Source of the DNA: Streptomyces sp. P3
GTDB taxonomy: Bacteria > Actinomycetota > Actinomycetes > Streptomycetales > Streptomycetaceae
Length of the DNA: 64,000 bases
Direction: 5' to 3'
Assembly: GCF_003032475.1 (NCBI RefSeq)
Contig: NZ_CP028369.1
Coordinates: forward strand, 7,874,001 to 7,938,000
Position numbers and translations under genes: made by a program. Shown here piece after piece: positions 5,570-17,619 of this stretch. Below the pieces are notes generated by a model, which was not told the DNA's origin, did not search any database, and saw only the letters and a list, made by a program, of their open reading frames with translations. Positions within the stretch are counted from its first letter, which is position 1; every line of letters starts with the position of its first letter.

Positions 5570-7372
5570 TTGTCGACCGCCATCCTCACCGGCTCGCCGG
5601 TCCCCGGATCGTCGATCGAGGGCGACCTGCGGTCCCTCGGCTTCGACGTCCTGACCGCCTCCGACGCCGGTGACGCCGAGGCACTCCTCGCCGCCGTCCC
5701 CGGCGACCAGCGCGTCGCCGTGGTGGACGCCCGCTTCGTCGGTCACGAGCACGCCCTGCGCCTGGGGCTCACCGATCCCCGCTTCCCGCTCGCCGCGATC
5801 CCGGGCGCGCTGACCGCGCAGCCGGCCGCCCGCCGGGCCCTGACCCGCGCGATGGCCCGCGAGAACTCCGCGAGCGGCGGCACCCTGCTGGCCGTCGAGA
5901 GCCTCGCCGACCGCGTGGTCGCCGCCCTCGACGCCGACGGCGCCGACGTGCACCACCCCGAACTGGGCAGTCTGGTCGCGCAGGTGCCGGTCGACCCGCA
6001 GACCCGCAACGAGGCACGGCAGGCCGTGGCCGCCCTGGACGACGAGGCGGTGCGCCTGAAGTCGGCCGTCAAGGCCCGCGACGGCTTCTTCACCACCTAC
6101 TTCATCAGCCCGTACTCCCGCTACATCGCCCGCTGGTGCGCCCGCCGCGGCCTGACCCCGAACCAGGTCACGACCGCCTCGCTGATCACCGCGCTGATCG
6201 CGGCGGGCTGCGCGGCCACCGGCACCCGCGGCGGGTTCGTCGCGGCCGGCGTCCTGCTGATCGCCTCCTTCGTCCTGGACTGCGTCGACGGCCAGCTCGC
6301 CCGCTACTCCCTGCAGTACTCCACCCTGGGCGCCTGGCTCGACGCCACCTTCGACCGGGCCAAGGAGTACGCCTACTACGCGGGCCTCGCCCTGGGAGCG
6401 GCCCGCGGCGGCGACGACGTGTGGGCGCTCGCGCTGGGCGCCATGGTCCTGCAGACCTGCCGGCACGTCGTGGACTTCTCCTTCAACGAGGCCAACCACG
6501 ACGCGACCGCCAACACCAGCCCCACCGCCGCCCTCTCCGACAAGCTCGACAGCGTCGGCTGGACGGTCTGGGTGCGGCGGATGATAGTTCTGCCCATCGG
6601 CGAACGATGGGCCATGATCGCCGTGCTGACCGCGGCCACCACCCCCCGCATCACCTTCTACGCGCTGCTCGTCGGCTGCGCCTTCGCGGCGACGTACACC
6701 ACGGCGGGCCGTGTCCTGCGCTCCCTCACCCGCAAGGCCAGGCGGACGGACCGGGCGGCGCAGGCGCTCGCGGACCTCGCGGACAGCGGGCCGCTGACCG
6801 AGGCGCTGGTCCGCTTCCTTCCCGGCAGGCCCCGGCCGACCGCGCTCCTCAGCGCCGCCGTCGGCGCCGTGCTGGTCACCCTCGCGGCCTGGATGTGGGG
6901 CCCGAGCTGGTGGGTCGTCCTGATGGCCGGCGCGTACGTCCTGTTGTCCGCCGAGGCCGTCGCCCATCCCCTCAAGGGCGCCCTCGACTGGCTGGTCCCC
7001 CCGCTGTTCCGCGCCGCCGAGTACGGCACGATCCTGATCCTGGCGGCCCGGGCCGACGTGGACGGAGCGCTTCCCGCGGCTTTCGGGCTGGTCGCCGCCG
7101 TCGCCTACCATCACTACGACACGGTGTACCGCATCCGCGGCGACGCCGGAGCGCCGCCGGCCTGGCTGGTGCGCACCGTCGGGGGGCAGGAGGGGCGGAC
7201 GCTGCTCGTGGCCGTGCTGGCCGCGCTGCTCACCGCTTCGCAGTTCACGGTCGCGCTCACGGTTCTCGCCGTGGCCGTCGCCGTCGTGGGGCTCGTCGAG
7301 AGCATCCGCTTCTGGGTGTCCGCCCACAAGGGCGGCGCTCCCGCCGTACACGATGAAGGAGAACCCGCATGA
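5570..7372 (+). CDS. membrane CDP-alcohol phosphotransferase with extra N- and C-terminal domains
   Basis: A 600-aa protein in three parts. Residues 1-160 form a soluble domain I do not recognise. Residues 165-400 are a CDP-alcohol phosphotransferase with the complete motif D237..D240-G..AR(244-245)..G254..D258..D262, preceded by the segment GLTPNQVTTAS. Residues about 420-590 form a second multi-helix membrane region (DUF5941-like from memory). The family moves a phospho-alcohol from a CDP carrier to an acceptor alcohol in the membrane. The segment before the motif resembles the linker in archaeal IPCT-DIPPS fusions, where an N-terminal nucleotidyltransferase makes CDP-inositol; here that job may fall to the next gene. 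The start is TTG 5570 with GGGAG 9 bp upstream. The stop overlaps the next start (ATGA). Substrate unknown. Confidence 0.82.
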   Translation: MSTAILTGSPVPGSSIEGDLRSLGFDVLTASDAGDAEALLAAVPGDQRVAVVDARFVGHEHALRLGLTDPRFPLAAIPGALTAQPAARRALTRAMARENSASGGTLLAVESLADRVVAALDADGADVHHPELGSLVAQVPVDPQTRNEARQAVAALDDEAVRLKSAVKARDGFFTTYFISPYSRYIARWCARRGLTPNQVTTASLITALIAAGCAATGTRGGFVAAGVLLIASFVLDCVDGQLARYSLQYSTLGAWLDATFDRAKEYAYYAGLALGAARGGDDVWALALGAMVLQTCRHVVDFSFNEANHDATANTSPTAALSDKLDSVGWTVWVRRMIVLPIGERWAMIAVLTAATTPRITFYALLVGCAFAATYTTAGRVLRSLTRKARRTDRAAQALADLADSGPLTEALVRFLPGRPRPTALLSAAVGAVLVTLAAWMWGPSWWVVLMAGAYVLLSAEAVAHPLKGALDWLVPPLFRAAEYGTILILAARADVDGALPAAFGLVAAVAYHHYDTVYRIRGDAGAPPAWLVRTVGGQEGRTLLVAVLAALLTASQFTVALTVLAVAVAVVGLVESIRFWVSAHKGGAPAVHDEGEPA

Positions 7373-8121
7373 TCGGCCTCGTGCTGGCGGCCGGCGCCGG
7401 ACGGCGTCTGCGCCCCTACACCGACACCCTGCCCAAGGCGCTGGTGCCGGTGGGGCCCGCGGGCATAGAAGGCGAGCCCACGGTCCTGGACCTGACGCTC
7501 GGCAACTTCGCCGAGATCGGGCTGACCGAGGTCGCGGTCATCGTCGGCTACCGCAAGGAGGCCGTGTACGAGCGCAAGGCGGCGCTGGAGGCGAAGTACG
7601 GCCTCAAGCTCACCCTCATCGACAACGACAAGGCCGAGGAGTGGAACAACGCGTACTCCCTGTGGTGCGGTCGTGACGCGCTCAAGGACGGCGTGATCCT
7701 CGCCAACGGCGACACCGTGCACCCGGTCTCCGTCGAGAGGACGCTACTCGCCGCCCGTGGTGAGGGCAGGCGGATCATCCTCGCGCTGGACACCGTGAAG
7801 TCCCTCGCGGACGAGGAGATGAAGGTCGTCGTCGACCCCGAGCGGGGCATGACGAAGATCACCAAGCTGATGGACCCGGCCGAGGCCACCGGTGAGTACA
7901 TCGGCGTCACCCTCATCGAGGGCGACGCGGCCCCCGAACTGGCCGACGCCCTCAAGACCGTGTGGGAGACCGACCCGCAGCAGTTCTACGAGCACGGGTA
8001 CCAGGAACTGGTGAACCGCGGCTTCCGCATCGACGTGGCGCCGATCGGCGACGTCAAGTGGGTGGAGATCGACAACCACGACGATCTCGCCCGCGGACGG
8101 GAGATCGCGTGCCAGTACTGA
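7369..8121 (+). CDS. phospho-alcohol/sugar-phosphate nucleotidyltransferase
   Basis: A 250-aa NTP_transferase-fold enzyme with the N-terminal signature LAAGAGRRLRPYTDTLPKAL (residues 6-25) that binds NTP and a metal. The next segment, LIDNDKAEEWNNAYSLW, resembles the LicC/IPCT branch, which loads phosphocholine or inositol phosphate onto CTP, more than the hexose-1-phosphate branch. Because both partners that use CDP-alcohols are in the same operon, I infer that it makes a CDP-activated alcohol, perhaps from the glycerol phosphate produced by the next gene. It is translationally coupled on both sides (ATGA upstream, 13-bp overlap downstream). Choice of nucleotide and substrate needs assay. 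Confidence 0.8.
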   Translation: MIGLVLAAGAGRRLRPYTDTLPKALVPVGPAGIEGEPTVLDLTLGNFAEIGLTEVAVIVGYRKEAVYERKAALEAKYGLKLTLIDNDKAEEWNNAYSLWCGRDALKDGVILANGDTVHPVSVERTLLAARGEGRRIILALDTVKSLADEEMKVVVDPERGMTKITKLMDPAEATGEYIGVTLIEGDAAPELADALKTVWETDPQQFYEHGYQELVNRGFRIDVAPIGDVKWVEIDNHDDLARGREIACQY

Positions 8122-9170
8122 CCCGGCTGATCCCCTCACCGGTCGTCGTGGACATCCGCCCGGGTGCCCTGGACGACCTGGTCGGGGTCCTCGCCGACGA
8201 GCGCATCTCGCACTCGGGCAAGCTCGCGATCGCCGTCAGCGGCGGCTCGGGCGCCCGGCTGCGCGAGCGGCTCACCCCGGCCCTGTCCGGCGCCACCTGG
8301 TACGAGGTGGGCGGCGGCACCCTCGACGACGCGGTCCGGCTGGCCGGCGACATAAAGGCCGGCCGTTACGACGCCGTCGTGGGCCTGGGCGGCGGCAAGA
8401 TCATCGACTGCGCCAAGTTCGCCGCGGCGCGGGTGGGCCTGCCGCTGGTCGCCGTGCCGACGAACCTCGCGCACGACGGCCTGTGCTCGCCGGTCGCCAC
8501 CCTCGACAACGACGCGGGACGCGGCTCCTACGGCGTGCCGAACCCGATCGCGGTCGTGATCGACCTGGACGTCATCCGCGAGGCCCCGGTGCGGTTCGTG
8601 CGCGCCGGCATCGGCGACGCGGTGTCCAACATCTCGGCGATCGCCGACTGGGAGCTCGCCAACCGGGTCAAGGGCGAGAAGATCGACGGTCTCGCGGCCG
8701 CGATCGCCCGGCAGGCCGGCGAGGCCGTGCTGCGCCACCCGGGCGGCATCGGCGACACCGGCTTCCTCCAGGTGCTGGCCGAGGCGCTGGTGCTCAGCGG
8801 CATCGCGATGTCGGTGTCGGGCGACTCCCGCCCCTCCTCCGGCGCGTGCCACGAGATCAACCACGCCTTCGACCTGCTCTTCCCCCGGCGGGCCGCCGCC
8901 CACGGCGAGCAGTGCGGACTCGGCGCGGCCTTCGCGATGTACCTGCGCGGAGCCCACGAGGAGTCGGCCTACATGGCCCAGGTGCTGCGCCGGCACGGAC
9001 TGCCCGTCCTGCCGGAGGAGATCGGCTTCACGGTGGACGAGTTCGTCCGCGCCGTGGGGTTCGCTCCCGAGACCAGGCCCGGCCGCTACACGATCCTCGA
9101 ACACCTCGACCTCAAGCCCGACCAGATCAAGGACGTCTACACCGAATATGTCAAGGCCATCGGTAGCTGA
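8109..9170 (+). CDS. sn-glycerol-1-phosphate dehydrogenase-like (AraM/EgsA family)
   Basis: A 353-aa iron-alcohol-dehydrogenase-fold protein. NAD-binding GLGGGKIID is at residues 92-100, followed by AVPTNLAHDG, and the metal-binding histidines are in GACHEINHAFD and AAHGEQCG. This set is typical of the branch that reduces dihydroxyacetone phosphate to sn-glycerol 1-phosphate, known from archaeal lipids and Bacillus AraM. If that activity holds, the locus would make the mirror-image glycerol phosphate rather than the usual sn-3 form. The GTG at 8109 overlaps the upstream gene by 13 bp; the longer open frame from 7962 is a shadow of that gene. It sits between the nucleotidyltransferase and the second transferase, consistent with supplying the substrate to be activated. 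Confidence 0.82.
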   Translation: MPVLTRLIPSPVVVDIRPGALDDLVGVLADERISHSGKLAIAVSGGSGARLRERLTPALSGATWYEVGGGTLDDAVRLAGDIKAGRYDAVVGLGGGKIIDCAKFAAARVGLPLVAVPTNLAHDGLCSPVATLDNDAGRGSYGVPNPIAVVIDLDVIREAPVRFVRAGIGDAVSNISAIADWELANRVKGEKIDGLAAAIARQAGEAVLRHPGGIGDTGFLQVLAEALVLSGIAMSVSGDSRPSSGACHEINHAFDLLFPRRAAAHGEQCGLGAAFAMYLRGAHEESAYMAQVLRRHGLPVLPEEIGFTVDEFVRAVGFAPETRPGRYTILEHLDLKPDQIKDVYTEYVKAIGS

Positions 9171-9927
9171 ACTCAGACCGGTCGTCCACCCCCCGGGGGT
9201 GAAGGACCGGCGCAGCGGTGAGCACTGGATGGGACGCCTCTACATGCGTGAGGTGTCCCTGCGGGTGGACCGCTATCTGGTGAACACCAGGGTCACGCCC
9301 AACCAGCTCACGTATCTGATGACCGTCTTCGGGGTGCTCGCGGCCCCGGCCCTGCTGGTGCCGGGGATCACGGGCGCCGTGCTCGGCGTGGTCTGCGTCC
9401 AGATGTACCTGCTGCTGGACTGCGTGGACGGCGAGATCGCGCGCTGGAAGAAGCAGTACTCGCTGGCGGGCGTCTACCTGGACCGGGTCGGCGCGTACCT
9501 GACCGACGCGGCGGTGCTCGTCGGCTTCGGTCTGCGCGCCGCCGACCTGTGGGGCAGCGGGCGCATCGACTGGCTGTGGGCCTTCCTCGGCACCCTGGCC
9601 GCGCTCGGCGCCATCCTGATCAAGGCGGAGACCGACCTCGTCGGCGTCGCCCGTCATCAGGGAGGGCTGCCGCCGGTCAAGGAGGCGGCGTCCGAGCCGC
9701 GCTCCTCCGGCATGGCGCTGGCCCGCCGGGCCGCCGCGGCCCTCAAGTTCCACCGGCTGATCCTCGGCATCGAGGCGTCCCTGCTCATCCTGGTCCTGGC
9801 CGTGGCCGACCAGCTGCGCGGCGACCTGTTCTTCTCCCGGCTCGGCGTGGCCGTGCTGGCGGGCATCGCGCTCCTGCAGACGCTGCTGCACCTGGTGTCC
9901 ATCCTCGCCTCGAGCAGGCTCAAGTGA
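9148..9927 (+). CDS. second CDP-alcohol phosphotransferase, altered active site
   Basis: A 259-aa membrane protein with about six helices. The segment NTRVTPNQLTYL precedes a CDP-alcohol motif D91..D94-G95..A98-R99..G108..D112, but the fourth aspartate (expected at 116, the proposed catalytic base) is Ala in LDRVGAYLTD. The DNA at 9493-9498 reads GGCGCG, so this is not a reading error within the given sequence. The protein may use another base, accept a different substrate, or act as a non-catalytic partner of the first transferase. ATG 9148 overlaps the upstream stop by 23 bp, and its own stop overlaps the glycosyltransferase start (GTGA), so it is expressed as part of the operon. Confidence 0.82.
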   Translation: MSRPSVAELRPVVHPPGVKDRRSGEHWMGRLYMREVSLRVDRYLVNTRVTPNQLTYLMTVFGVLAAPALLVPGITGAVLGVVCVQMYLLLDCVDGEIARWKKQYSLAGVYLDRVGAYLTDAAVLVGFGLRAADLWGSGRIDWLWAFLGTLAALGAILIKAETDLVGVARHQGGLPPVKEAASEPRSSGMALARRAAAALKFHRLILGIEASLLILVLAVADQLRGDLFFSRLGVAVLAGIALLQTLLHLVSILASSRLK

Positions 9928-10808
9928 GCGCGGCGAAGAAGGTCGGCGCGGTCGTCATCACCATGGGCAACCGCCCCGGCGAGCTGCGCGCCCTGCTCGA
10001 CTCGGTCGCGGGGCAGGACGGCGACCGGGTGGAGGTGGTCGTGGTCGGCAACGGCGCGCCCGTCCCGGAAGTCCCCGAGGGCGTCCGGACGATCGAGCTG
10101 CCCGAGAACCTCGGCATCCCCGGCGGCCGCAACGTCGGCATCGAGGCCTTCGGGCCCGGCGGCCGCGACGTCGACATCCTGCTGTTCCTGGACGACGACG
10201 GCCTGCTGGCCCGCACGGACACCGCCGAACTGTGCCGCCGTGCCTTCGACGCCGATCCGGAACTGGGCATCATCAGCTTCCGGATCGCCGACCCGGACAC
10301 CGGCGTCACCCAGCGCCGCCACGTGCCCCGGCTGCGCGCCTCCGACCCGATGCGCTCGTCCCGGGTGACCACCTTCCTCGGCGGCGCGAACGCCGTCCGC
10401 ACGGAGGTGCTCGCGCAGGTCGGCGGTCTCCCCGGCGAGTTCTTCTACGCCCACGAGGAGACCGACCTGGCGTGGCGGGCGCTCGACGCGGGCTGGATGA
10501 TCGACTACCGGTCGGACATGGTGCTCCACCACCCGACGACCGCACCCTCACGGCACGCGGTGTACCACCGCATGGTGGCCCGCAACCGGGTGTGGCTGGC
10601 CCGCCGGAACCTGCCCGCCCCGCTGGTCCCGGTCTACCTCGGGGTCTGGATGCTGCTCACGCTGGCCCGCCGCCCCTCGGGGCCGGCCCTGAAGGCGTGG
10701 TTCGGCGGTTTCCGGGAGGGCTGGAGCACTCCCTGCGGGCCGCGCAGGCCCATGAAGTGGCGTACGGTGTGGCGGCTGACCCGACTGGGCCGGCCTCCGG
10801 TGATCTGA
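9924..10808 (+). CDS. family 2 glycosyltransferase
   Basis: A 294-aa GT-A fold enzyme. It starts with the nucleotide-binding strand GAVVITMGNRPGELRALL, has the metal-binding acidic cluster FLDDDG near residue 88, the acceptor-side FLGGANAVR segment, and the catalytic-base region YAHEETDLAWR near residue 175. It lacks membrane helices apart from a weakly hydrophobic stretch near residue 235. The family transfers a sugar from a nucleotide donor with inversion, often in rhamnan, galactan or O-antigen assembly at the inner face of the membrane. The GTG start at 9924 overlaps the upstream stop. UDP-galactose from the divergent galE is a possible donor, which is inference. A 97-bp gap follows before the exporter genes. 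Confidence 0.87.
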   Translation: MSAAKKVGAVVITMGNRPGELRALLDSVAGQDGDRVEVVVVGNGAPVPEVPEGVRTIELPENLGIPGGRNVGIEAFGPGGRDVDILLFLDDDGLLARTDTAELCRRAFDADPELGIISFRIADPDTGVTQRRHVPRLRASDPMRSSRVTTFLGGANAVRTEVLAQVGGLPGEFFYAHEETDLAWRALDAGWMIDYRSDMVLHHPTTAPSRHAVYHRMVARNRVWLARRNLPAPLVPVYLGVWMLLTLARRPSGPALKAWFGGFREGWSTPCGPRRPMKWRTVWRLTRLGRPPVI

Positions 10809-10905
10809 CAAGCTCGTCCCTGAGGGCCCCGGGACGTACCGCGGGCCCCCGGCTCATGCGGGTCCCCCAGGGGCTGCGCATCCCGAAGACGAAGGTTTCC
10901 TACCT

Positions 10906-11835
10906 GTGAGTGAGACAACGCATGACGTCGGAGTCGCCGTGAGCGCGCTTCCGTCGCCCGACGAGGGCCTCACGGCGGCGCAGCTGGCAGCCAGGTACGG
11001 GCTGGCCGTGAGCGGCGCCCGGCCTCCGCTGCGGGAGTACGTCCGCCAGCTGTGGGGGCGCCGTCACTTCATCCTGGCGTTCTCCCGGGCGAAGCTGGCC
11101 GCGCAGTACAGCCAGGCCAAGCTGGGCCAGCTGTGGCAGGTGGCCACGCCCCTGCTGAACGCGGCCGTGTACTTCATGATCTTCGGCCTGCTCCTCAACG
11201 CCAGCCGCGGGATGCCCAAGGACGTGTACATCCCGTTCCTGGTCACGGGCGTCTTCGTGTTCACCTTCACGCAGACCTCGGTGATGAGCGGCGTCCGGGC
11301 GATCTCCGGCAACCTCGGCCTGGTGCGGGCACTGCACTTCCCGCGCGCCTCGCTGCCGATCTCCTTCGCGCTGCAGCAGCTCCAGCAGTTGCTGTACTCG
11401 ATGCTGGTGCTGTTCGCCGTGGTGATCGGCATGGGCAGCTACCCGGACCTGTCCTGGACGCTGATCGTCCCGGTGCTGGCCCTGCAGTTCTGCTTCAACA
11501 CCGGCCTGGCGCTGGTGTTCGCGCGGGCCGGCGCCAAGACCCCCGACCTGGCGCAGCTGATGCCGTTCGTGATGCGGACGTGGATGTACGCCTCCGGCGT
11601 GATGTTCTCCATCCCCGTCTTCCTCGCGGACAAGCCGCAGTGGGTGGCGAACGTCCTGCAGTGGAATCCCGCCGCCATCTACATGGACCTCATGCGCTTC
11701 GCGCTCATCGAGGAGTACGGCGCGGAGAACCTGCCCGACCACGTGTGGGCGGTCGCGGGCGGCTGGGCGGTCCTCATGGCCGTCGGCGGGTTCGTGTACT
11801 TCTGGAAGGCGGAGGAGAGGTACGGCCGTGGTTGA
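10906..11835 (+). CDS. ABC-2 type polymer export permease (Wzm/TagG-like)
   Basis: A 309-aa membrane subunit with six predicted helices and the ABC2_membrane features of polysaccharide and teichoic-acid exporters: an amphipathic N-terminal segment (RQLWGRRHFILAFSRAKLAAQYSQAKLGQLWQV) before helix 1, and a C-terminal NPAAIYMDLMRFAL segment that contacts the ATPase. It pairs with the next gene, whose start overlaps its stop by 8 bp. By family it carries an undecaprenyl- or lipid-linked glycan or polyol-phosphate polymer across the cytoplasmic membrane. The GTG at 10906 is the first start after a 97-bp gap. The cargo is inferred from the operon to be the product of genes 5570-10808. Confidence 0.9.
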   Translation: MSETTHDVGVAVSALPSPDEGLTAAQLAARYGLAVSGARPPLREYVRQLWGRRHFILAFSRAKLAAQYSQAKLGQLWQVATPLLNAAVYFMIFGLLLNASRGMPKDVYIPFLVTGVFVFTFTQTSVMSGVRAISGNLGLVRALHFPRASLPISFALQQLQQLLYSMLVLFAVVIGMGSYPDLSWTLIVPVLALQFCFNTGLALVFARAGAKTPDLAQLMPFVMRTWMYASGVMFSIPVFLADKPQWVANVLQWNPAAIYMDLMRFALIEEYGAENLPDHVWAVAGGWAVLMAVGGFVYFWKAEERYGRG

Positions 11836-12619
11836 TCCGCTTCCGGGGGACCGGGCGGGACGCAGGGTCCCGACGGTCATCGCCGACGAGGTCCACATCG
11901 TCTACCGCGTCAACGGCGCCAAGAGCGGGAAGGGCAGCGCCACCGCCGCCCTCAGCCGGATCGTCAAGCGCGGTGAGGAGCGCGGCGTGCGCAAGGTGCA
12001 CGCGGTGCGCGGCGTCTCCTTCGTCGCCCACCGGGGCGAGGCCATCGGCCTGATCGGCTCCAACGGCTCGGGCAAGTCCACGCTGCTGCGCGCCATCGCC
12101 GGGCTGCTGCCGCCGGAGAGCGGCAGGGTGTACACCGACGGACAGCCCTCCCTGCTCGGCGTCAACGCCGCGATGATGAACGACCTCACCGGCGAACGCA
12201 ACGTCACCCTGGGCGGTCTGGCCATGGGCATGTCCCGTGAGGAGATCAGGGAGCGCTACCAGGGGATCGTCGACTTCTCGGGAATCAACGAGAAGGGTGA
12301 CTTCATCAGCCTGCCGATGCGCACCTACTCCTCCGGCATGCAGGCCCGGCTGCGGTTCTCCATCGCCGCGGCCAAGGACCACGACGTCCTGATGATCGAC
12401 GAGGCCCTCGCCACCGGCGACGCCAAGTTCCGCAGGCGCTCCGAGGCGCGGGTGCGGGAGCTGCGCGAGCAGGCCGGCACGGTGTTCCTGGTGAGCCACA
12501 GCAACCAGTCGATCAGGGACACCTGCGACCGCGTGCTCTGGCTGGAACGCGGCGAACTGCGCCTGGACGGGCCGACCGAAGAGGTCCTGCGGGAGTACGA
12601 GAAGTTCTCGGGCAAGTAG
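11828..12619 (+). CDS. ABC transporter ATP-binding subunit (Wzt/TagH-like)
   Basis: A 263-aa ATPase with Walker A GSNGSGKS (77-84), the signature YSSGMQ (167-172), Walker B VLMIDE (187-192) and the H-loop in SHSNQS. A roughly 60-residue N-terminal extension precedes the conserved HAVRGVSF segment, as in TagH and Wzt proteins. It has no C-terminal carbohydrate-binding domain, so it probably exports a polymer without reading a terminal cap. It overlaps the permease gene by 8 bp and is followed by a strong terminator, so it closes the operon. Assignment to polymer export rather than drug efflux rests on this sequence subtype and on its partner. Confidence 0.9.
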   Translation: MVDPLPGDRAGRRVPTVIADEVHIVYRVNGAKSGKGSATAALSRIVKRGEERGVRKVHAVRGVSFVAHRGEAIGLIGSNGSGKSTLLRAIAGLLPPESGRVYTDGQPSLLGVNAAMMNDLTGERNVTLGGLAMGMSREEIRERYQGIVDFSGINEKGDFISLPMRTYSSGMQARLRFSIAAAKDHDVLMIDEALATGDAKFRRRSEARVRELREQAGTVFLVSHSNQSIRDTCDRVLWLERGELRLDGPTEEVLREYEKFSGK

Positions 12620-12629
12620 GCCGCCCGGT

Positions 12630-12663
12630 CGGGGCCCCGCCGGAACTGTCCGGCGGGGCCCCG
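12630..12663 (+). terminator. hairpin terminator closing the 5570-12619 operon
   Basis: A perfect 14-bp G+C-rich stem (12630-12643 with 12650-12663) and a 6-nt loop, 10 bp after the ATPase stop codon. It separates this operon from the hopanoid operon. Confidence 0.85.
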
Positions 12664-12699
12664 CGTCTGCAAAGGAAGCGCCAACTCCCCTCCGGGTAA

Positions 12700-12726
12700 G
12701 GAATCTTGACGCCAATCGGTGTGTTG
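12700..12726 (+). promoter_or_regulatory. sigma-R-like promoter for the hopanoid operon
   Basis: GGAAT at 12700-12704 is followed after exactly 18 bp by GTTG at 12723-12726, which matches the Streptomyces sigma-R consensus GGAAT-N18-GTT used in thiol-oxidative stress. An overlapping TTGACG at 12706-12711 could instead serve as a vegetative -35, although no good -10 follows it. The match to the consensus is observed; the assignment is inference. Confidence 0.5.
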
Positions 12727-12762
12727 TTGTGATGTGCAGAACACCCCCTGCGCACCAGGCTG

Positions 12763-12774
12763 CGTTGTACAACG
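12763..12774. promoter_or_regulatory. 12-bp perfect palindrome, candidate operator
   Basis: CGTTGTACAACG, a perfect 12-bp palindrome about 30 bp downstream of the expected transcription start. It could be a repressor site for the hopanoid operon or chance; no regulator is assigned. Confidence 0.3.
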
Positions 12775-12905
12775 TAAGCTGGACCGGTCCCGAAACGCGT
12801 CAAGTGGGGCGATAACGCTCAGCGCCACGGCCGAAGCCTCGCGCCGACGTGCGGGCGGCGTGTCCGAAATAGTGTGTATTGGGTCGGCAGTGTAGAACGG
12901 GAGAT

Positions 12906-12980
12906 GTGACGGCATTGGCTACGGAAACTCCCCAGCTCAGCGCGGGCCGCGCCGTTTCCGCAGCGGGCGGCCGGGGATGA
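12906..12980 (+). CDS. possible 24-aa leader peptide overlapping hpnC
   Basis: A GTG-initiated frame of 24 codons whose TGA overlaps the hpnC ATG (ATGA). A GGGAG sequence lies just 2 bp before the GTG, closer than usual, so the true start may be the in-frame TTG at 12915. The overlap would allow translational coupling into hpnC. No homology is known to me. It may be an unrecognised leader or a chance frame. Confidence 0.3.
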   Translation: MTALATETPQLSAGRAVSAAGGRG

Positions 12981-13879
12981 CGGCGTCCGTCGCGCCGCGC
13001 ACCGGCGACCCGGTGGACGGCACGCTGGACAAGGCCGCGCACGAGAACTTCCCCGTGGCTCCCTTCTTCCTGCCCCGGGCCTGGCGTGACGACCTCATGG
13101 CCGTCTACGGCTTCGCCCGTCTCGTCGACGACATCGGCGACGGGGACCTCGCCCCGGGCGGCGCCGACGCCCGGCTGCTCGGCGTGTCGGCCGCCGAGGC
13201 GACTGACCGCACGGTCCTGCTGGACGCGTTCGAGGCCGATCTGCGACGGGTCTTCGACGGCACGCCCCGGCACCCCCTGCTGCGCCGCCTCCAGCCGGCC
13301 GTCCGCCGCCGCGCGCTCCGTCCCGAGCCCTTCCTCGGCCTGATCGCCGCCAACCGGCAGGACCAGATCGTCACGCGGTACGAGACCTACGACGACCTCC
13401 TCGCCTACTGCGAGCTGTCCGCCAATCCCGTGGGCCGCCTGGTCCTCGCCGTCACCGGCGCCTCGACCCCCGAGCGGATCCGCCTCTCCGACGCGATCTG
13501 CACCGCGCTGCAGATCGTCGAACACCTGCAGGACGTGTCCGAGGACCTCGGCCGCGACCGTGTGTACCTGCCCGCCGCGGACATGAAGCGCTTTCACGTC
13601 CGGGAAACGGACCTCGCCGCGGCGAGCGCGGGGGCGTCGGTGCGCGCGCTGGTGGCGTACGAGGCGCAACGCGCGCGCGATCTCCTGAATGAAGGCGCCC
13701 CCTTGGTGGGTAGCGTCCACGGCAGGCTGAGACTGCTGCTCGCGGGGTTCGTGGCGGGAGGAAGGGCCGCGATCCGAGCGATCGCCGCCGCCGAGTACGA
13801 CGTACTTCCCGGCCCGCCCAAGCCCGGCAAGCTCCAGTTGCTGCGCGAGGTGGGCGTGACCTTGCGAGGAGAGGGGTGA
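12977..13879 (+). CDS. hpnC: squalene synthase HpnC (hydroxysqualene-forming partner)
   Basis: A 300-aa all-helical prenyl transferase of the squalene/phytoene synthase family. The first aspartate-rich motif is in RLVDDIGDGD near residue 50, the second site in EHLQDVSEDLGRDRVYLP near residue 180. In the established HpnCDE route, HpnD first condenses two farnesyl diphosphates to presqualene diphosphate, HpnC converts this to hydroxysqualene and HpnE reduces it to squalene. It is the first clear gene of the operon and overlaps the next one by 4 bp (GTGA). The order hpnC-hpnD-hpnE with shc downstream makes the assignment firm, although C and D are similar and are separated here by sequence subtype and order. 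Confidence 0.92.
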   Translation: MTASVAPRTGDPVDGTLDKAAHENFPVAPFFLPRAWRDDLMAVYGFARLVDDIGDGDLAPGGADARLLGVSAAEATDRTVLLDAFEADLRRVFDGTPRHPLLRRLQPAVRRRALRPEPFLGLIAANRQDQIVTRYETYDDLLAYCELSANPVGRLVLAVTGASTPERIRLSDAICTALQIVEHLQDVSEDLGRDRVYLPAADMKRFHVRETDLAAASAGASVRALVAYEAQRARDLLNEGAPLVGSVHGRLRLLLAGFVAGGRAAIRAIAAAEYDVLPGPPKPGKLQLLREVGVTLRGEG

Positions 13880-14826
13880 TCCGGACCGTGGAGTCGTCCG
13901 TGCACGTGTCCGCACCGGTACTCGCCGCCTACGGCTACTGCGAGACCGTCACCGGACAGCAGGCCCGCAACTTCGCGTACGGGATCCGGCTGCTGCCCAC
14001 GCCCGAACGCCGCGCGATGTCCGCGCTCTACGCCTTCTCGCGCCGCGTCGACGACATCGGCGACGGCGCGCTGGACGGCGACGTCAAGAGCGCCCGGCTC
14101 GAGGACACCCGGGCACTGCTCACCCGCATCCGCGCGGGCGAGATCGAGGAGGACGACACCGACCCCGTCGCGGTCGCCCTCGCGCACACGGCCCGGGCCT
14201 TCCCGGTCCCGCTGGGCGGCCTGGACGAGCTGATCGACGGCGTGCTGATGGACGTGCGCGGCGAGACGTACGAGACCTGGGACGACCTGAAGGTGTACTG
14301 CCGCTGCGTGGCGGGCGCCATCGGGCGGCTCTCCCTCGGGGTGTTCGGCACCCAGCCGGGGGCGCGTGGCGCCGAGCGCGCGCCGGAGTACGCCGACACG
14401 CTCGGGCTCGCACTCCAGCTCACGAACATCCTCCGAGACGTCCGCGAGGACGCGGCGGGAGGCCGGACCTATCTGCCCGCCGACGACCTCGCCAAGTTCG
14501 GCTGCTCGGCCGGGTTCGAGGGGCCGAAGCCGCCGGAGGGCTCCGACTTCGCGGGTCTCGTCCACTTCGAGGTGCGGCGCGCCCGCGCCCTGTTCGCCGA
14601 GGGCTACCGGCTGCTGCCCATGCTCGACCGGCGCAGCGGCGCCTGCGTCGCCGCCATGGCCGGCATCTACCGCCGGCTCCTCGACCGCATCGAGCGCGAC
14701 CCCGAGGCCGTGCTGCGCGGCCGCGTCTCGCTGCCCGGCCGGGAGAAGGCCTATGTCGCCGTGCGCGGCCTGTCGGGCCTGGACGCCCGGCACGCGTCGC
14801 GACGGAGCGTCAGGAGGCACGTCTGA
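13876..14826 (+). CDS. hpnD: presqualene diphosphate synthase HpnD
   Basis: A 316-aa squalene/phytoene synthase-family enzyme. The motifs are stronger than in hpnC: RRVDDIGDG near residue 55 and LTNILRDVREDAAGGRTYLP near residue 180, the two Mg-diphosphate sites. By family HpnD joins two farnesyl diphosphate molecules to presqualene diphosphate. GTG at 13876 overlaps the hpnC stop; its TGA overlaps the ATG of the following small gene (TGATG). It has an N-terminal AAYGYCETVTGQQARNFAYGI segment typical of the family. Expected to be cytosolic or membrane-associated. Confidence 0.93.
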   Translation: MIRTVESSVHVSAPVLAAYGYCETVTGQQARNFAYGIRLLPTPERRAMSALYAFSRRVDDIGDGALDGDVKSARLEDTRALLTRIRAGEIEEDDTDPVAVALAHTARAFPVPLGGLDELIDGVLMDVRGETYETWDDLKVYCRCVAGAIGRLSLGVFGTQPGARGAERAPEYADTLGLALQLTNILRDVREDAAGGRTYLPADDLAKFGCSAGFEGPKPPEGSDFAGLVHFEVRRARALFAEGYRLLPMLDRRSGACVAAMAGIYRRLLDRIERDPEAVLRGRVSLPGREKAYVAVRGLSGLDARHASRRSVRRHV

Positions 14827-14978: not shown

Positions 14979-16480
14979 ACGACGAGCAGCTCGCGGACGC
15001 CGCCCGGGCGCCCGAACCCGCGGGACGCACCGCCGTCGTCGTCGGGGGCGGGCTGGCCGGAGTCACCGCCGCGCTCGCGCTCGCCGACGCGGGCGTGCGC
15101 GTCACCCTGCTCGAGGGCCGGCCCCGGCTCGGCGGCCTCGCCTTCTCCTTCCGCCGCGGCGAACTGACCGTCGACAACGGACAGCACGTCTACCTGCGCT
15201 GCTGCACCGCCTACCGGTGGTTCCTCGACCGCATCGACGCCGGCGCGCTCGCGCCGCTGCAGAATCGTCTCGATGTGCCCGTCGTCGACGTCGACAGGCC
15301 CGAGGGGCGACGGCTCGGCAGGCTGCGCCGCGACGCGCTGCCGGTGCCCCTGCATCTGGGGCGCAGCCTCGCCGTGTATCCGCATCTCTCGCTCGCCGAA
15401 CGCGCCGGGGTGGGCCGCGCCGCACTGGCGCTCAAGGGGCTCGACCTCGCCGATCCGGCCCTGGACGCCCAGGACTTCGGCAGTTGGCTGACCGCGCACG
15501 GACAGTCGGCGCGCGCCGTCGAGGCCCTGTGGGACCTCGTCGGGGTCGCCACCCTCAACGCGGTCGCCGGCGACTGCTCGCTGGGACTCGCCGCGATGGT
15601 GTTCAAGACCGGCCTGCTCTCCGAGCCGGGCGCGGCCGACATCGGCTGGGCGCACGTCCCGCTGGGCGAGCTGCACGACCGGCTGGCCCGCAAGGCGCTC
15701 GACGCCGCGGGCGTGCGCACCGAGGTCCGTGCCCGCGTCACCTCCCTCGTACCCGACGACGACGGGACCTGGCGCGTGCGGGTTCCCGGCGCGACGCTCC
15801 GCACGGACGCCGTCGTGCTCGCCGTACCGCAGCGCGAGGCCTACGACCTGCTGCCCGACGGAGCGCTCCACGACGCCGGGCGACTCCTCGAGATCGGCAC
15901 CGCGCCCATCCTCAACGTGCACGTCGTCTACGACCGCAAGGTGCTCGACGCGCCCTTCTTCGCGGCCCTCGGCACCCCCGTGCAATGGGTGTTCGACCGC
16001 ACCCACGCCTCCGGGCTGCGCGAGGGCCAGTACCTCGCCCTCTCCCAGTCCGCCGCGCAGGACGAGATCGACGAGCCCGTCGCCGCCCTGCGCGAGCGGT
16101 ACCTGCCCGAGCTGCGAAGGCTGCTGCCGGGCGCGCGCCGCGCCGAGGTGAAGGACTTCTTCGTGACCCGGGAGCGGACCGCCACGTTCGCCCCCGCCCC
16201 CGGCGTCGGGCGGCTTCGCCCCGGCGCCCGCACCGAAGCACCCGGCCTGTACCTGGCCGGAGCGTGGACCGCCACAGGGTGGCCCGCGACCATGGAGAGT
16301 GCGGTCCGCAGCGGTGTGAGCGCGGCGGACGCCGCGCTCGGCGCCCTGGGCCGGCCCCGACCACGCCGCCTCTTCGACTTCGAGGAAGCGGCCCACTGCA
16401 TCGTCCCGGGGGGCGACCCCCGCACCCCCGGCCGACGGCCGGAGGGGACCGGCGTGCCCCTGCGAGGTGGGACCCGGTGA
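14975..16480 (+). CDS. hpnE: hydroxysqualene dehydroxylase HpnE
   Basis: A 501-aa FAD-dependent amine-oxidase/phytoene-desaturase-type flavoprotein. The dinucleotide motif VVGGGLAGVTAALALADAGVRV is near residue 18 and continues into LLEGRPRLGG; the C-terminal FAD segment LYLAGAWTATGWPATMESAVRSG is near residue 425. It catalyses the last step of the HpnCDE squalene route, reductive removal of the hydroxyl group from hydroxysqualene. ATG 14975 overlaps the small gene's stop; an open frame from 14879 is its upstream shadow. The stop overlaps a GTG (16477) of the next frame, so translation is coupled. Firm by sequence and by order. Confidence 0.93.
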   Translation: MNDEQLADAARAPEPAGRTAVVVGGGLAGVTAALALADAGVRVTLLEGRPRLGGLAFSFRRGELTVDNGQHVYLRCCTAYRWFLDRIDAGALAPLQNRLDVPVVDVDRPEGRRLGRLRRDALPVPLHLGRSLAVYPHLSLAERAGVGRAALALKGLDLADPALDAQDFGSWLTAHGQSARAVEALWDLVGVATLNAVAGDCSLGLAAMVFKTGLLSEPGAADIGWAHVPLGELHDRLARKALDAAGVRTEVRARVTSLVPDDDGTWRVRVPGATLRTDAVVLAVPQREAYDLLPDGALHDAGRLLEIGTAPILNVHVVYDRKVLDAPFFAALGTPVQWVFDRTHASGLREGQYLALSQSAAQDEIDEPVAALRERYLPELRRLLPGARRAEVKDFFVTRERTATFAPAPGVGRLRPGARTEAPGLYLAGAWTATGWPATMESAVRSGVSAADAALGALGRPRPRRLFDFEEAAHCIVPGGDPRTPGRRPEGTGVPLRGGTR

Positions 16481-16545
16481 CGTTCGATCAGCACGGCTCG
16501 GCACACCCCCGCACCCCCTCCGGTACCGCGACAAGAGGAGAATCT

Positions 16546-17619
16546 GTGCCCACTGTGCCCCCGGCCACGTCGGCCGTCCGGCGGACCGCGGTGGACGTGA
16601 CCGCGCTCCTGGAGCGCGGCCGCACCCTGGCCACACCGGTGCTGCGGGCGGCCGTCGACCGTCTGGCGCCGCCCATGGACACGGTCGCCGCCTACCACTT
16701 CGGCTGGATCGACGCGCAGGGCAACCCGACCGACGGCGACGGCGGCAAGGCGGTGCGCCCCGCGCTCGCCGTGCTCTCCGCGGAGGTCGCCGGCGCCGCT
16801 CCCGAGGTCGGCGTCCCCGGCGCGGTCGCCGTGGAGCTGGTCCACAACTTCTCGCTCCTGCACGACGACCTTATGGACGGCGACGAGCAGCGCCGGCACC
16901 GCGACACCGTCTGGAAGGTGCACGGCCCCGCCCAGGCCATCCTGGTCGGCGACGCCCTGTTCGCCCTCGCCAACGAGATCCTGCTGGAACTCGGCACCGT
17001 CGAGGCCGGTCGCGCCACGCGCCGGCTGACCACCGCCACCCGCGCCCTCATCGACGGCCAGGCCCAGGACATCTCCTACGAACACCGCGACCGGGTCAGC
17101 GTCGAGGAGTGCCTGGAGATGGAGGGCAACAAGACCGGCGCGCTGCTGGCCTGCGCCAGCTCCATCGGCGCGGTGCTCGGCGGCGCCGACGAGCGCACCG
17201 CGGACACCCTGGAGAAGTACGGCCACCACCTCGGTCTCGCCTTCCAGGCCGTCGACGACCTCCTCGGCATCTGGGGCGACCCCGAGGCCACCGGCAAGCA
17301 GACCTGGAGCGACCTGCGCCAGCGCAAGAAGTCGCTGCCCGTGGTCGCCGCCCTCGCCGCGGGCGGTCCCGCCTCCGAGCGGCTCGGCGAGATCCTCGCC
17401 GCGGACGCCAAGAGCAGCGACTTCGACAACTTCTCCGAGGAGGAGTTCGCGGCCCGGGCCGCCCTGATCGAGGAGGCGGGCGGCCGCGAGTGGACCGCCG
17501 GGGAGGCACGCCGGCAGCACGCGGTCGCCATCGAGGCCCTGAACGCCGTGGACATGCCCGAGCCGGTGCGGGAGCGGTTCACGGCGCTCGCCGACTTCGT
17601 CGTCGTACGAAAGAGATGA
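16546..17619 (+). CDS. polyprenyl diphosphate synthase
   Basis: A 357-aa trans-isoprenyl diphosphate synthase that elongates allylic diphosphates with isopentenyl diphosphate. The first aspartate-rich motif is in LLHDDLMDGDEQRRH near residue 105; the second reads AVDDLLGIWGD, with Gly at the fifth position, as I recall in Streptomyces paralogues. Substrate-binding GGKAVRPAL is near residue 67. In this operon it presumably makes farnesyl diphosphate for hpnD, although chain length cannot be read with certainty. Two starts exist: GTG 16477, overlapping hpnE, and GTG 16546, which has a good AGAGGAG 5 bp upstream; I prefer 16546. The N-terminal part of the longer version shows no family similarity. 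Confidence 0.9.
   Translation: MPTVPPATSAVRRTAVDVTALLERGRTLATPVLRAAVDRLAPPMDTVAAYHFGWIDAQGNPTDGDGGKAVRPALAVLSAEVAGAAPEVGVPGAVAVELVHNFSLLHDDLMDGDEQRRHRDTVWKVHGPAQAILVGDALFALANEILLELGTVEAGRATRRLTTATRALIDGQAQDISYEHRDRVSVEECLEMEGNKTGALLACASSIGAVLGGADERTADTLEKYGHHLGLAFQAVDDLLGIWGDPEATGKQTWSDLRQRKKSLPVVAALAAGGPASERLGEILAADAKSSDFDNFSEEEFAARAALIEEAGGREWTAGEARRQHAVAIEALNAVDMPEPVRERFTALADFVVVRKR

Follow-up and report, generated by a model that had tools for sequence, protein, structure and literature searches.

Streptomyces sp. P3, whose 9.85-Mb genome forms a single contig with other Streptomyces as its nearest named relatives, carries a seven-gene operon within a 64,000-nucleotide stretch of contig NZ_CP028369.1 (positions 7,874,001 to 7,938,000; hereafter the window). 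All seven open reading frames (ORFs) are open at 5570-12619 on the forward strand. Pfam assigns their products to CDP-OH_P_transf (genes 1 and 4), NTP_transferase, Fe-ADH_2, GT2, ABC2_membrane and ABC_tran, that is, two cytidine diphosphate (CDP)-alcohol phosphotransferases, a nucleotidyltransferase, a dehydrogenase, a family 2 glycosyltransferase (GT2) and a Wzm/Wzt-class ATP-binding cassette (ABC) exporter. The operon is real, conserved and little described. The best reading, held with somewhat less than even confidence, is that it is a variant of the teichoic-acid kind of system.

Layout and conservation of the operon

Five of the six gene junctions overlap, by 4-23 bases, and the GT2-to-Wzm junction is a gap of 97 bases. 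A reading made earlier from the sequence alone (the sequence-only reading) had described seven tightly coupled genes closed by a terminator. The coupling holds, and so does a hairpin after gene 7 that likely acts as a terminator, although it lacks a T tail and is not among the calls of a consensus terminator scan. No sigma-70 promoter was found by consensus scan. The gene families that had been named agree with Pfam, except that gene 1 has further domains besides that of a CDP-alcohol transferase (Table 1). Upstream of gene 1 lies a divergent galE, and the hopanoid synthesis genes hpnC and hpnD follow downstream on the same strand.

Table 1. Features of the operon and its 3' flank (window coordinates)
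Feature	Position	Strand	Basis
Gene 1 (cdpA, 600 aa), membrane CDP-alcohol phosphotransferase	5570..7372	+	Pfam PF01066, PF19365; nearest solved chain AF2299; fold comparison
Gene 1 N-domain, residues 1-156, cytidylyltransferase-like (IspD/TarI/GlmU fold)	5570..6037	+	Fold comparison
Gene 1 signature DxxDGxxAR...GxxxDxxxD, complete, residues 237-262	6278..6355	+	Sequence
Gene 1 DUF5941, residues 394-600, extra C-terminal membrane helices	6749..7369	+	PF19365, E=4e-92
Gene 2 (250 aa), LicC/IPCT-like nucleotidyltransferase	7369..8121	+	PF00483; best solved relative 1jyk, E=1e-11
Gene 3 (353 aa), putative AraM/EgsA-like sn-glycerol-1-phosphate (G1P) dehydrogenase	8109..9170	+	Fe-ADH_2; solved G1P dehydrogenases, E=3e-43
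Gene 4 (cdpB, 259 aa), protein with the fold of CDP-alcohol phosphotransferases	9148..9927	+	Nearest solved structure AF2299
Gene 4 codon 116, Ala replacing the fourth Asp (D4, catalytic base)	9493..9495	+	Homologue alignment
Gene 5 (294 aa), GT2 enzyme	9924..10808	+	PF00535
Gene 6 (309 aa), Wzm/TagG-type ABC permease	10906..11835	+	PF01061
Gene 7 (263 aa), Wzt/TagH-type ABC ATPase without long C-terminal domain	11828..12619	+	PF00005
Hairpin 3' of gene 7, likely terminator	12630..12663	+	15-bp GC-rich stem, 4-base loop; RNA fold
hpnC, downstream neighbour	12977-14826	+	

Conservation was assessed in the best 80 Streptomyces loci for gene 1, of which 73 were long enough for all seven genes. 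The seven genes stand in the same order in 71 of these 73, and the order is therefore beyond chance; the two exceptions (L022 and L083) lack gene 7. All 73 have hpnC downstream. Further, 28 distant loci of at most 20 kb each were compared, comprising 8 with DUF5941 outside the genus and 20 hand-picked from a class-wide gene 4 search to span families, two of which are second gene 4 copies in Streptomyces. At E<=1e-10 and >60 bits, these loci hold matches to cdpB in 26 cases (in L110 it is gene 1 that scores), GT2 in 19, gene 1 in 16, Wzt in 14, Wzm in 11, the G1P dehydrogenase in 10 and gene 2 in 9, with gene 2 and the dehydrogenase occurring together in 8. A gene 5-type GT2 is found in 19 of the 26 loci with a cdpB-type match, and 12 of the 26 have no gene 1 match, a few of these at contig ends. 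Because several loci do stop at contig ends, the absences make these counts lower bounds on presence. The full order 1-7 is retained in L112 and genes 1-5 in L113 and L108, at identities to the operon of about 44-56% (28-39% for the permease). Some distant actinobacteria thus have either genes 1-3 or all seven, at about 45-55% identity and less for the permease. Scattering of the genes in relatives would, for the sequence-only reading, have been a refutation; they are not scattered within Streptomyces, whereas many of the distant loci keep only part of the set together.

Some distant relatives lie close to genes of wall polymer assembly. Among candidate neighbour proteins chosen because they recurred across loci, seven of the eight tested as TagF-like proved to be PF04464 proteins (L160, L163, L167, L168, L171, L172 and L174; not L114), and five of the six tested as LytR-CpsA-Psr (LCP) ligases proved to be such (L113, L157, L162, L165 and L170; not L167). 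The upstream galE precedes gene 1 in 62 of the 80 Streptomyces loci and scores in only 2 of the 28 distant ones; it is therefore a neighbour and was rejected as a core member, and a specific role for galactose supplied by it, suggested earlier, is not supported. Neither hpnC nor hpnD was matched in any of the 28 distant loci at the same E-value.

The distant loci also vary in content. In L108, a sulfotransferase gene (11826-13010, minus strand) lies between the GT2 and Wzm genes, and similar genes occur in other distant loci, hinting at a sulfated product there. Three loci (L161, L162 and L172) carry a MobA-like nucleotidyltransferase in exchange and no G1P dehydrogenase match; different lineages may therefore activate different alcohols.

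Two phosphotransferases and a missing aspartate

Both phosphotransferases have Archaeoglobus AF2299 as their nearest solved structure by sequence. In gene 1 the family signature is complete, and D4 is present in all 120 homologues among the matches listed (best 120 of 5713). Its N-terminal cytidylyltransferase-like domain is probably without activity, as in AF2299. Its C-terminal DUF5941 passed the cut-off in 19 of 396 genomes of the phylum, 12 of them in the same genus (Streptomyces sp. P3 included), and in 109 of 150 genomes of the family; all 38 same-genus genomes listed have it, in a listing from which 18 genomes without a match are absent. DUF5941 stands as an ORF of its own adjoining gene 1 in the distant loci L108-L110, L112-L114 and L165. 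By eye we suspected a degenerate second phosphotransferase domain in DUF5941, a reading that was dropped because profile-profile comparison gave P values of only 0.018 and 0.18. In a low-confidence structural model of gene 1, the alignment with 8ul9 spans residues 171-593 and most of the 8ul9 chain, and that with CEPT1 (8gyw) 139 residues only.

Gene 4 retains the membrane fold of the family. Its motif reads DxxDGExARW...GVYLDRVGA, in which the first three aspartates (D1-D3) and the other signature residues are kept and D4 is replaced by alanine. The replacement is alanine in all 120 Streptomyces-side homologues listed (best 120 of 1723) and histidine in all 120 distant homologues listed (best 120 of 4086), counts that describe the best-scoring homologues of each family; the matches listed in the cdpB-profile search were mostly metagenome proteins, few of them named. 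In the hand-picked distant loci, every gene 4 row in which the motif was found has His or Ala. An acidic residue four positions after D4 was considered as a substitute base and set aside, because the family of gene 1 carries the same residue. In the phosphatidylinositol-phosphate (PIP) synthase of Mycobacterium tuberculosis, the available text reports that changing D4 to Asn left almost no activity (PMC4634129). Given this and the replacement of D4, gene 4 may be a pseudoenzyme partner, or may use another base (e.g. His) or a substrate needing none. Gene 4 is far more widespread than DUF5941, with matches in 137 of 394 genomes of the class (E<=1e-20). The operon thereby brings to light a large family of phosphotransferases whose homologues, in every case checked, have another residue at a site that has been described as absolutely conserved and essential. 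Some Streptomyces have a second gene 4 copy, 52-55% identical, outside the operon (L175, 9828-10595, minus strand; L176, 9394-10131); in these two loci there is no GT2, exporter or gene 2-3 match nearby.

Proposed pathway and its alternatives

The exporter is one link to teichoic acids in this genome. Gene 7 has TagH as its top NCBIfam match (176 bits; cut-off 320). The sole other Wzm match in the genome (E<=0.001) lies at 3.049 Mb, adjoining a TagH-like ATPase and a TetR gene, and three PF04464 matches follow within 11 kb (3.055-3.061 Mb); the one scanned is a GT2-PF04464 fusion with TarF as its best NCBIfam model, below the cut-off. Gene 6 is 67-68% identical to the permease of this TagF-like locus and gene 7 is 77% identical to its ATPase, which bears out the sequence relation of the pair to TagGH. 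The two Streptomyces loci without gene 7 retain gene 6 (L022, about 16280-16600; L083, about 16270-16350), and each of the two genomes has one TagH-like ATPase elsewhere (76% or 80% identical). In the control genome, that of L008, a gene 7 (91%) is present along with another copy at 75%. Since L022 and L083 still hold a TagH-like paralogue, such ATPases may be interchangeable with gene 7.

Genes 2 and 3 are the proposed source of activated glycerol phosphate. The best solved relative of gene 2 is the CTP:phosphocholine cytidylyltransferase LicC, and we propose that gene 2 is a CTP:glycerol-1-phosphate cytidylyltransferase. In gene 3, D170, H248 and H265 align with Asp/His residues of solved G1P dehydrogenases and are candidate metal ligands; the protein scores 242 bits against NF002022, below the cut-off of 413.

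Other sources of the donor were sought across the genome. TagD (TIGR01518) exceeds its cut-off in none of 41 genomes, as against 2 of 14 controls, and TagA (PF03808) has no match in the Streptomyces sp. P3 genome and is present in 7 of 14 controls. Two weak TagD matches in Streptomyces sp. P3 fall, by eye, one in a reading frame that joins a sugar kinase to an adenylyltransferase and the other in a domain like it; we take both to be heptose-type adenylyltransferase domains. At L191 (1366-2970, plus strand) the genome encodes a ribitol-5-phosphate cytidylyltransferase domain (NF001183, 167.8 bits, cut-off 166) fused to a short-chain dehydrogenase; a source of CDP-ribitol is therefore likely, and this protein is the probable CDP-ribitol synthase of Streptomyces sp. 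P3. No source of CDP-glycerol besides genes 2 and 3 was found in the genome. Because TagF-like enzymes are present and neither TagD nor TagA was found, the natural candidates for supplying CDP-glycerol, starting from G1P, are genes 2 and 3. An archaeal-type ether lipid route was rejected, since PcrB/GGGP synthase has no match in the genome.

On this basis the operon is tentatively read, with confidence a little below even, as producing glycerol phosphate of the teichoic-acid type in the form of a primer, an anchor or a linkage unit, because its exporter and the pair of the TagF-like locus are close paralogues and some of its distant relatives have TagF-like and LCP genes nearby. Gene 3 would reduce dihydroxyacetone phosphate to G1P, and gene 2 would join G1P and CTP into a CDP-glycerol of opposite hand to the TagD product. 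Gene 1 would then pass glycerol phosphate from CDP-glycerol to an acceptor linked to a membrane lipid, either a sugar carried on a lipid or a glycolipid/diacylglycerol. Gene 5 would add a sugar, and gene 4, without the usual catalytic base, would carry out a second transfer or act as a partner of gene 1. Genes 6 and 7 would flip this product to the outside. The ten proteins scanned in the window include no TagF-like polymerase and no LCP ligase, so enzymes of both kinds encoded elsewhere in the genome would extend the product and attach it as wall teichoic acid; otherwise it would stay lipid-bound as lipoteichoic acid. Built from G1P, the glycerol phosphate would be of the sn-1 hand, which in Bacillus subtilis is, according to the available text, that of lipoteichoic acid and opposite to that of wall teichoic acid (PMC7086022). 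The phosphoglycan export system of the sequence-only reading is thereby kept in general, with its Wzm/Wzt-class exporter, and narrowed to a teichoic-acid type by the exporter paralogy and the TagF-like/LCP neighbours; its CDP-activated mirror-image glycerol phosphate is plausible.

Several observations weigh against this reading. TagD-like matches of 58-70 bits (cut-off 165) occur in 7 of the 41 genomes. According to the partial sources, lipoteichoic acid is absent from some Streptomyces (PMC3196553), and the S. coelicolor polymers named elsewhere contain no glycerol phosphate. In addition, genes 1, 2 and 4 each match the IPCT/DIPPS model NF041135, at 40-55 bits, and it is the top NCBIfam model for gene 4. 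Of the TagD-like matches, the three that were inspected all adjoin an apparent family 4 glycosyltransferase (GT4) gene by eye. At L181, L182 and L183, a small TagD-like cytidylyltransferase lies by a GT4-like gene, and L183 also has another CDP-alcohol phosphotransferase (by eye); these perhaps belong to a different CDP-alcohol pathway.

The S. coelicolor polymers would also fit a stand-alone, genus-wide phosphoglycolipid, a lipid bearing one sugar and one or two glycerol phosphates that is exported in its own right and is unrelated to wall or lipoteichoic acid. Such a product would agree with a single glycosyltransferase and no polymerase in the operon, with its conservation over the sampled genus while wall polymers vary, and with a TagGH pair of its own apart from the TagF-like locus. 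We consider it unlikely in view of the 67-77% identity between the two exporters, the ATPase of the TagF-like locus that may replace gene 7 in two genomes, and the TagF-like and LCP genes close to some distant relatives. The NF041135 matches point rather to inositol or another polyol as the activated alcohol, in which case gene 2 would be an inositol-1-phosphate-type cytidylyltransferase and G1P the acceptor, giving a glycero-phospho-inositol-type product. The two best NCBIfam models of gene 1, archaetidylinositol-phosphate and phosphatidylinositol-phosphate synthases, agree with this, as does 4mnd, which is among the nearest structures and narrowly first in Foldseek for gene 1. However, these inositol-type scores fall far under their cut-offs (580 bits for NF041135), sequence comparison places AF2299, whose donor is CDP-glycerol, above DIPPS for each of the two phosphotransferases, and LicC is the best solved match of gene 2, so that an inositol product appears quite improbable.

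The constant presence of hpnC in Streptomyces would suit an operon that puts glycerol phosphate or sugar on hopanoids made by the adjoining hpn genes. This is not a first choice because the linkage is unseen in the 28 distant loci, and with a strong hairpin separating the operon from the hpn unit we regard it as very improbable. A further alternative leaves the pathway otherwise as proposed and reduces it to a single phosphotransfer, with gene 4 an inactive partner of gene 1. The PIP synthase mutant and the Ala or His at D4 in all 240 homologues listed speak for it; on the other side, the remaining three aspartates are invariant, as are the other signature positions and numerous further residues, which suggests selection for chemistry, and 12 of the 26 distant cdpB-type loci show no gene 1 match, a few of them at contig ends. 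An inactive gene 4 is thus a serious contender, if on balance doubtful.

Should the teichoic-acid-type reading hold, the operon would supply candidate genes, across the Streptomyces sampled, for the missing glycerol phosphate source of teichoic acids, and it predicts a mirror-image glycerol phosphate whose hand is readable by a stereospecific phosphodiesterase. The available text on S. griseus describes a wall polymer with ribitol-phosphate signals and terminal glycerol phosphate, ascribed by its authors to glycerol substitution (PMC13274773). In S. hygroscopicus, the lipoteichoic acid and the wall teichoic acid are both reported to be poly(glycerol phosphate), with near-identical structures; the same partial source gives actinobacteria as without clear LtaS orthologues and states the making of poly(glycerol phosphate) lipoteichoic acid in such organisms as an open question (PMC3196553). 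More broadly, Actinobacteria might build wall and lipoteichoic glycerol phosphate alike from G1P, inside the cell, with ABC export and independently of TagD and LtaS, using membrane CDP-alcohol phosphotransferases that include a new catalytic class without D4. We think this generalization unlikely as it stands; if true, wall polymers would have the lipoteichoic (sn-1) hand, and the near-identity of wall and lipoteichoic acids in a Streptomyces would be explained.

Comparison with known systems

The operon had been taken as undescribed, which is nearly right. No functional study of the seven-gene set was found in open-access full text, where the one trace is a remark that Streptomyces orphan clusters of CDP-alcohol, GT2 and nucleotidyltransferase genes are syntenic with tagH, tagG, araM and crtB and are associated with teichoic acid and secondary metabolism (PMC13118837, 2026). 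This is evidently the same locus, and the remark, in the text available, is short and without mechanism, DUF5941, active-site or cross-lineage analysis. In the available part of a sigma-E regulon paper, sco6750, a putative isopentenyl pyrophosphate (IPP) isomerase, is a target and the operon genes are not named. Both phosphotransferases resemble the Archaeoglobus AF2299/IPCT-DIPPS enzymes in signature and membrane core, and gene 1 also in its N-terminal domain; the operon differs in the added DUF5941, in a gene 4 without D4 and in its export setting. The counterparts in S. coelicolor are presumably SCO6751-6758. With the eukaryotic choline/ethanolamine phosphotransferases CPT1/CEPT1, gene 1 may share a soluble CDP-alcohol donor and extra C-terminal helices (3-4 such helices mark lipid-acceptor enzymes of that type), a likeness drawn with the low-confidence model.

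The transporter belongs to the same family as TagGH/TagR of S. roseosporus, in which, according to the available text, tagG deletion caused slower growth, less sporulation and plasmolysis, and the tagG of B. subtilis was used for complementation (PMC10269677). The pair in the TagF-like locus resembles S. roseosporus tagH-tagG/tagR in arrangement, whereas genes 6 and 7 form a further, distinct copy that is linked to genes for phosphotransferases.

In Firmicutes, wall teichoic acid is made by the pathway TagO-TagA-TagB-TagD-TagF-TagGH-TagTUV. The operon shares with it a CDP-polyol donor, glycerol-phosphate chemistry and a TagGH-class exporter, together with LCP and TagF-like genes near some of its distant relatives. 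It departs from it in a genome without detected TagD or TagA, in a donor proposed to come from G1P through an AraM-like dehydrogenase and a LicC-type enzyme, and in having membrane CDP-alcohol phosphotransferases where Firmicutes have a TagB-type enzyme.

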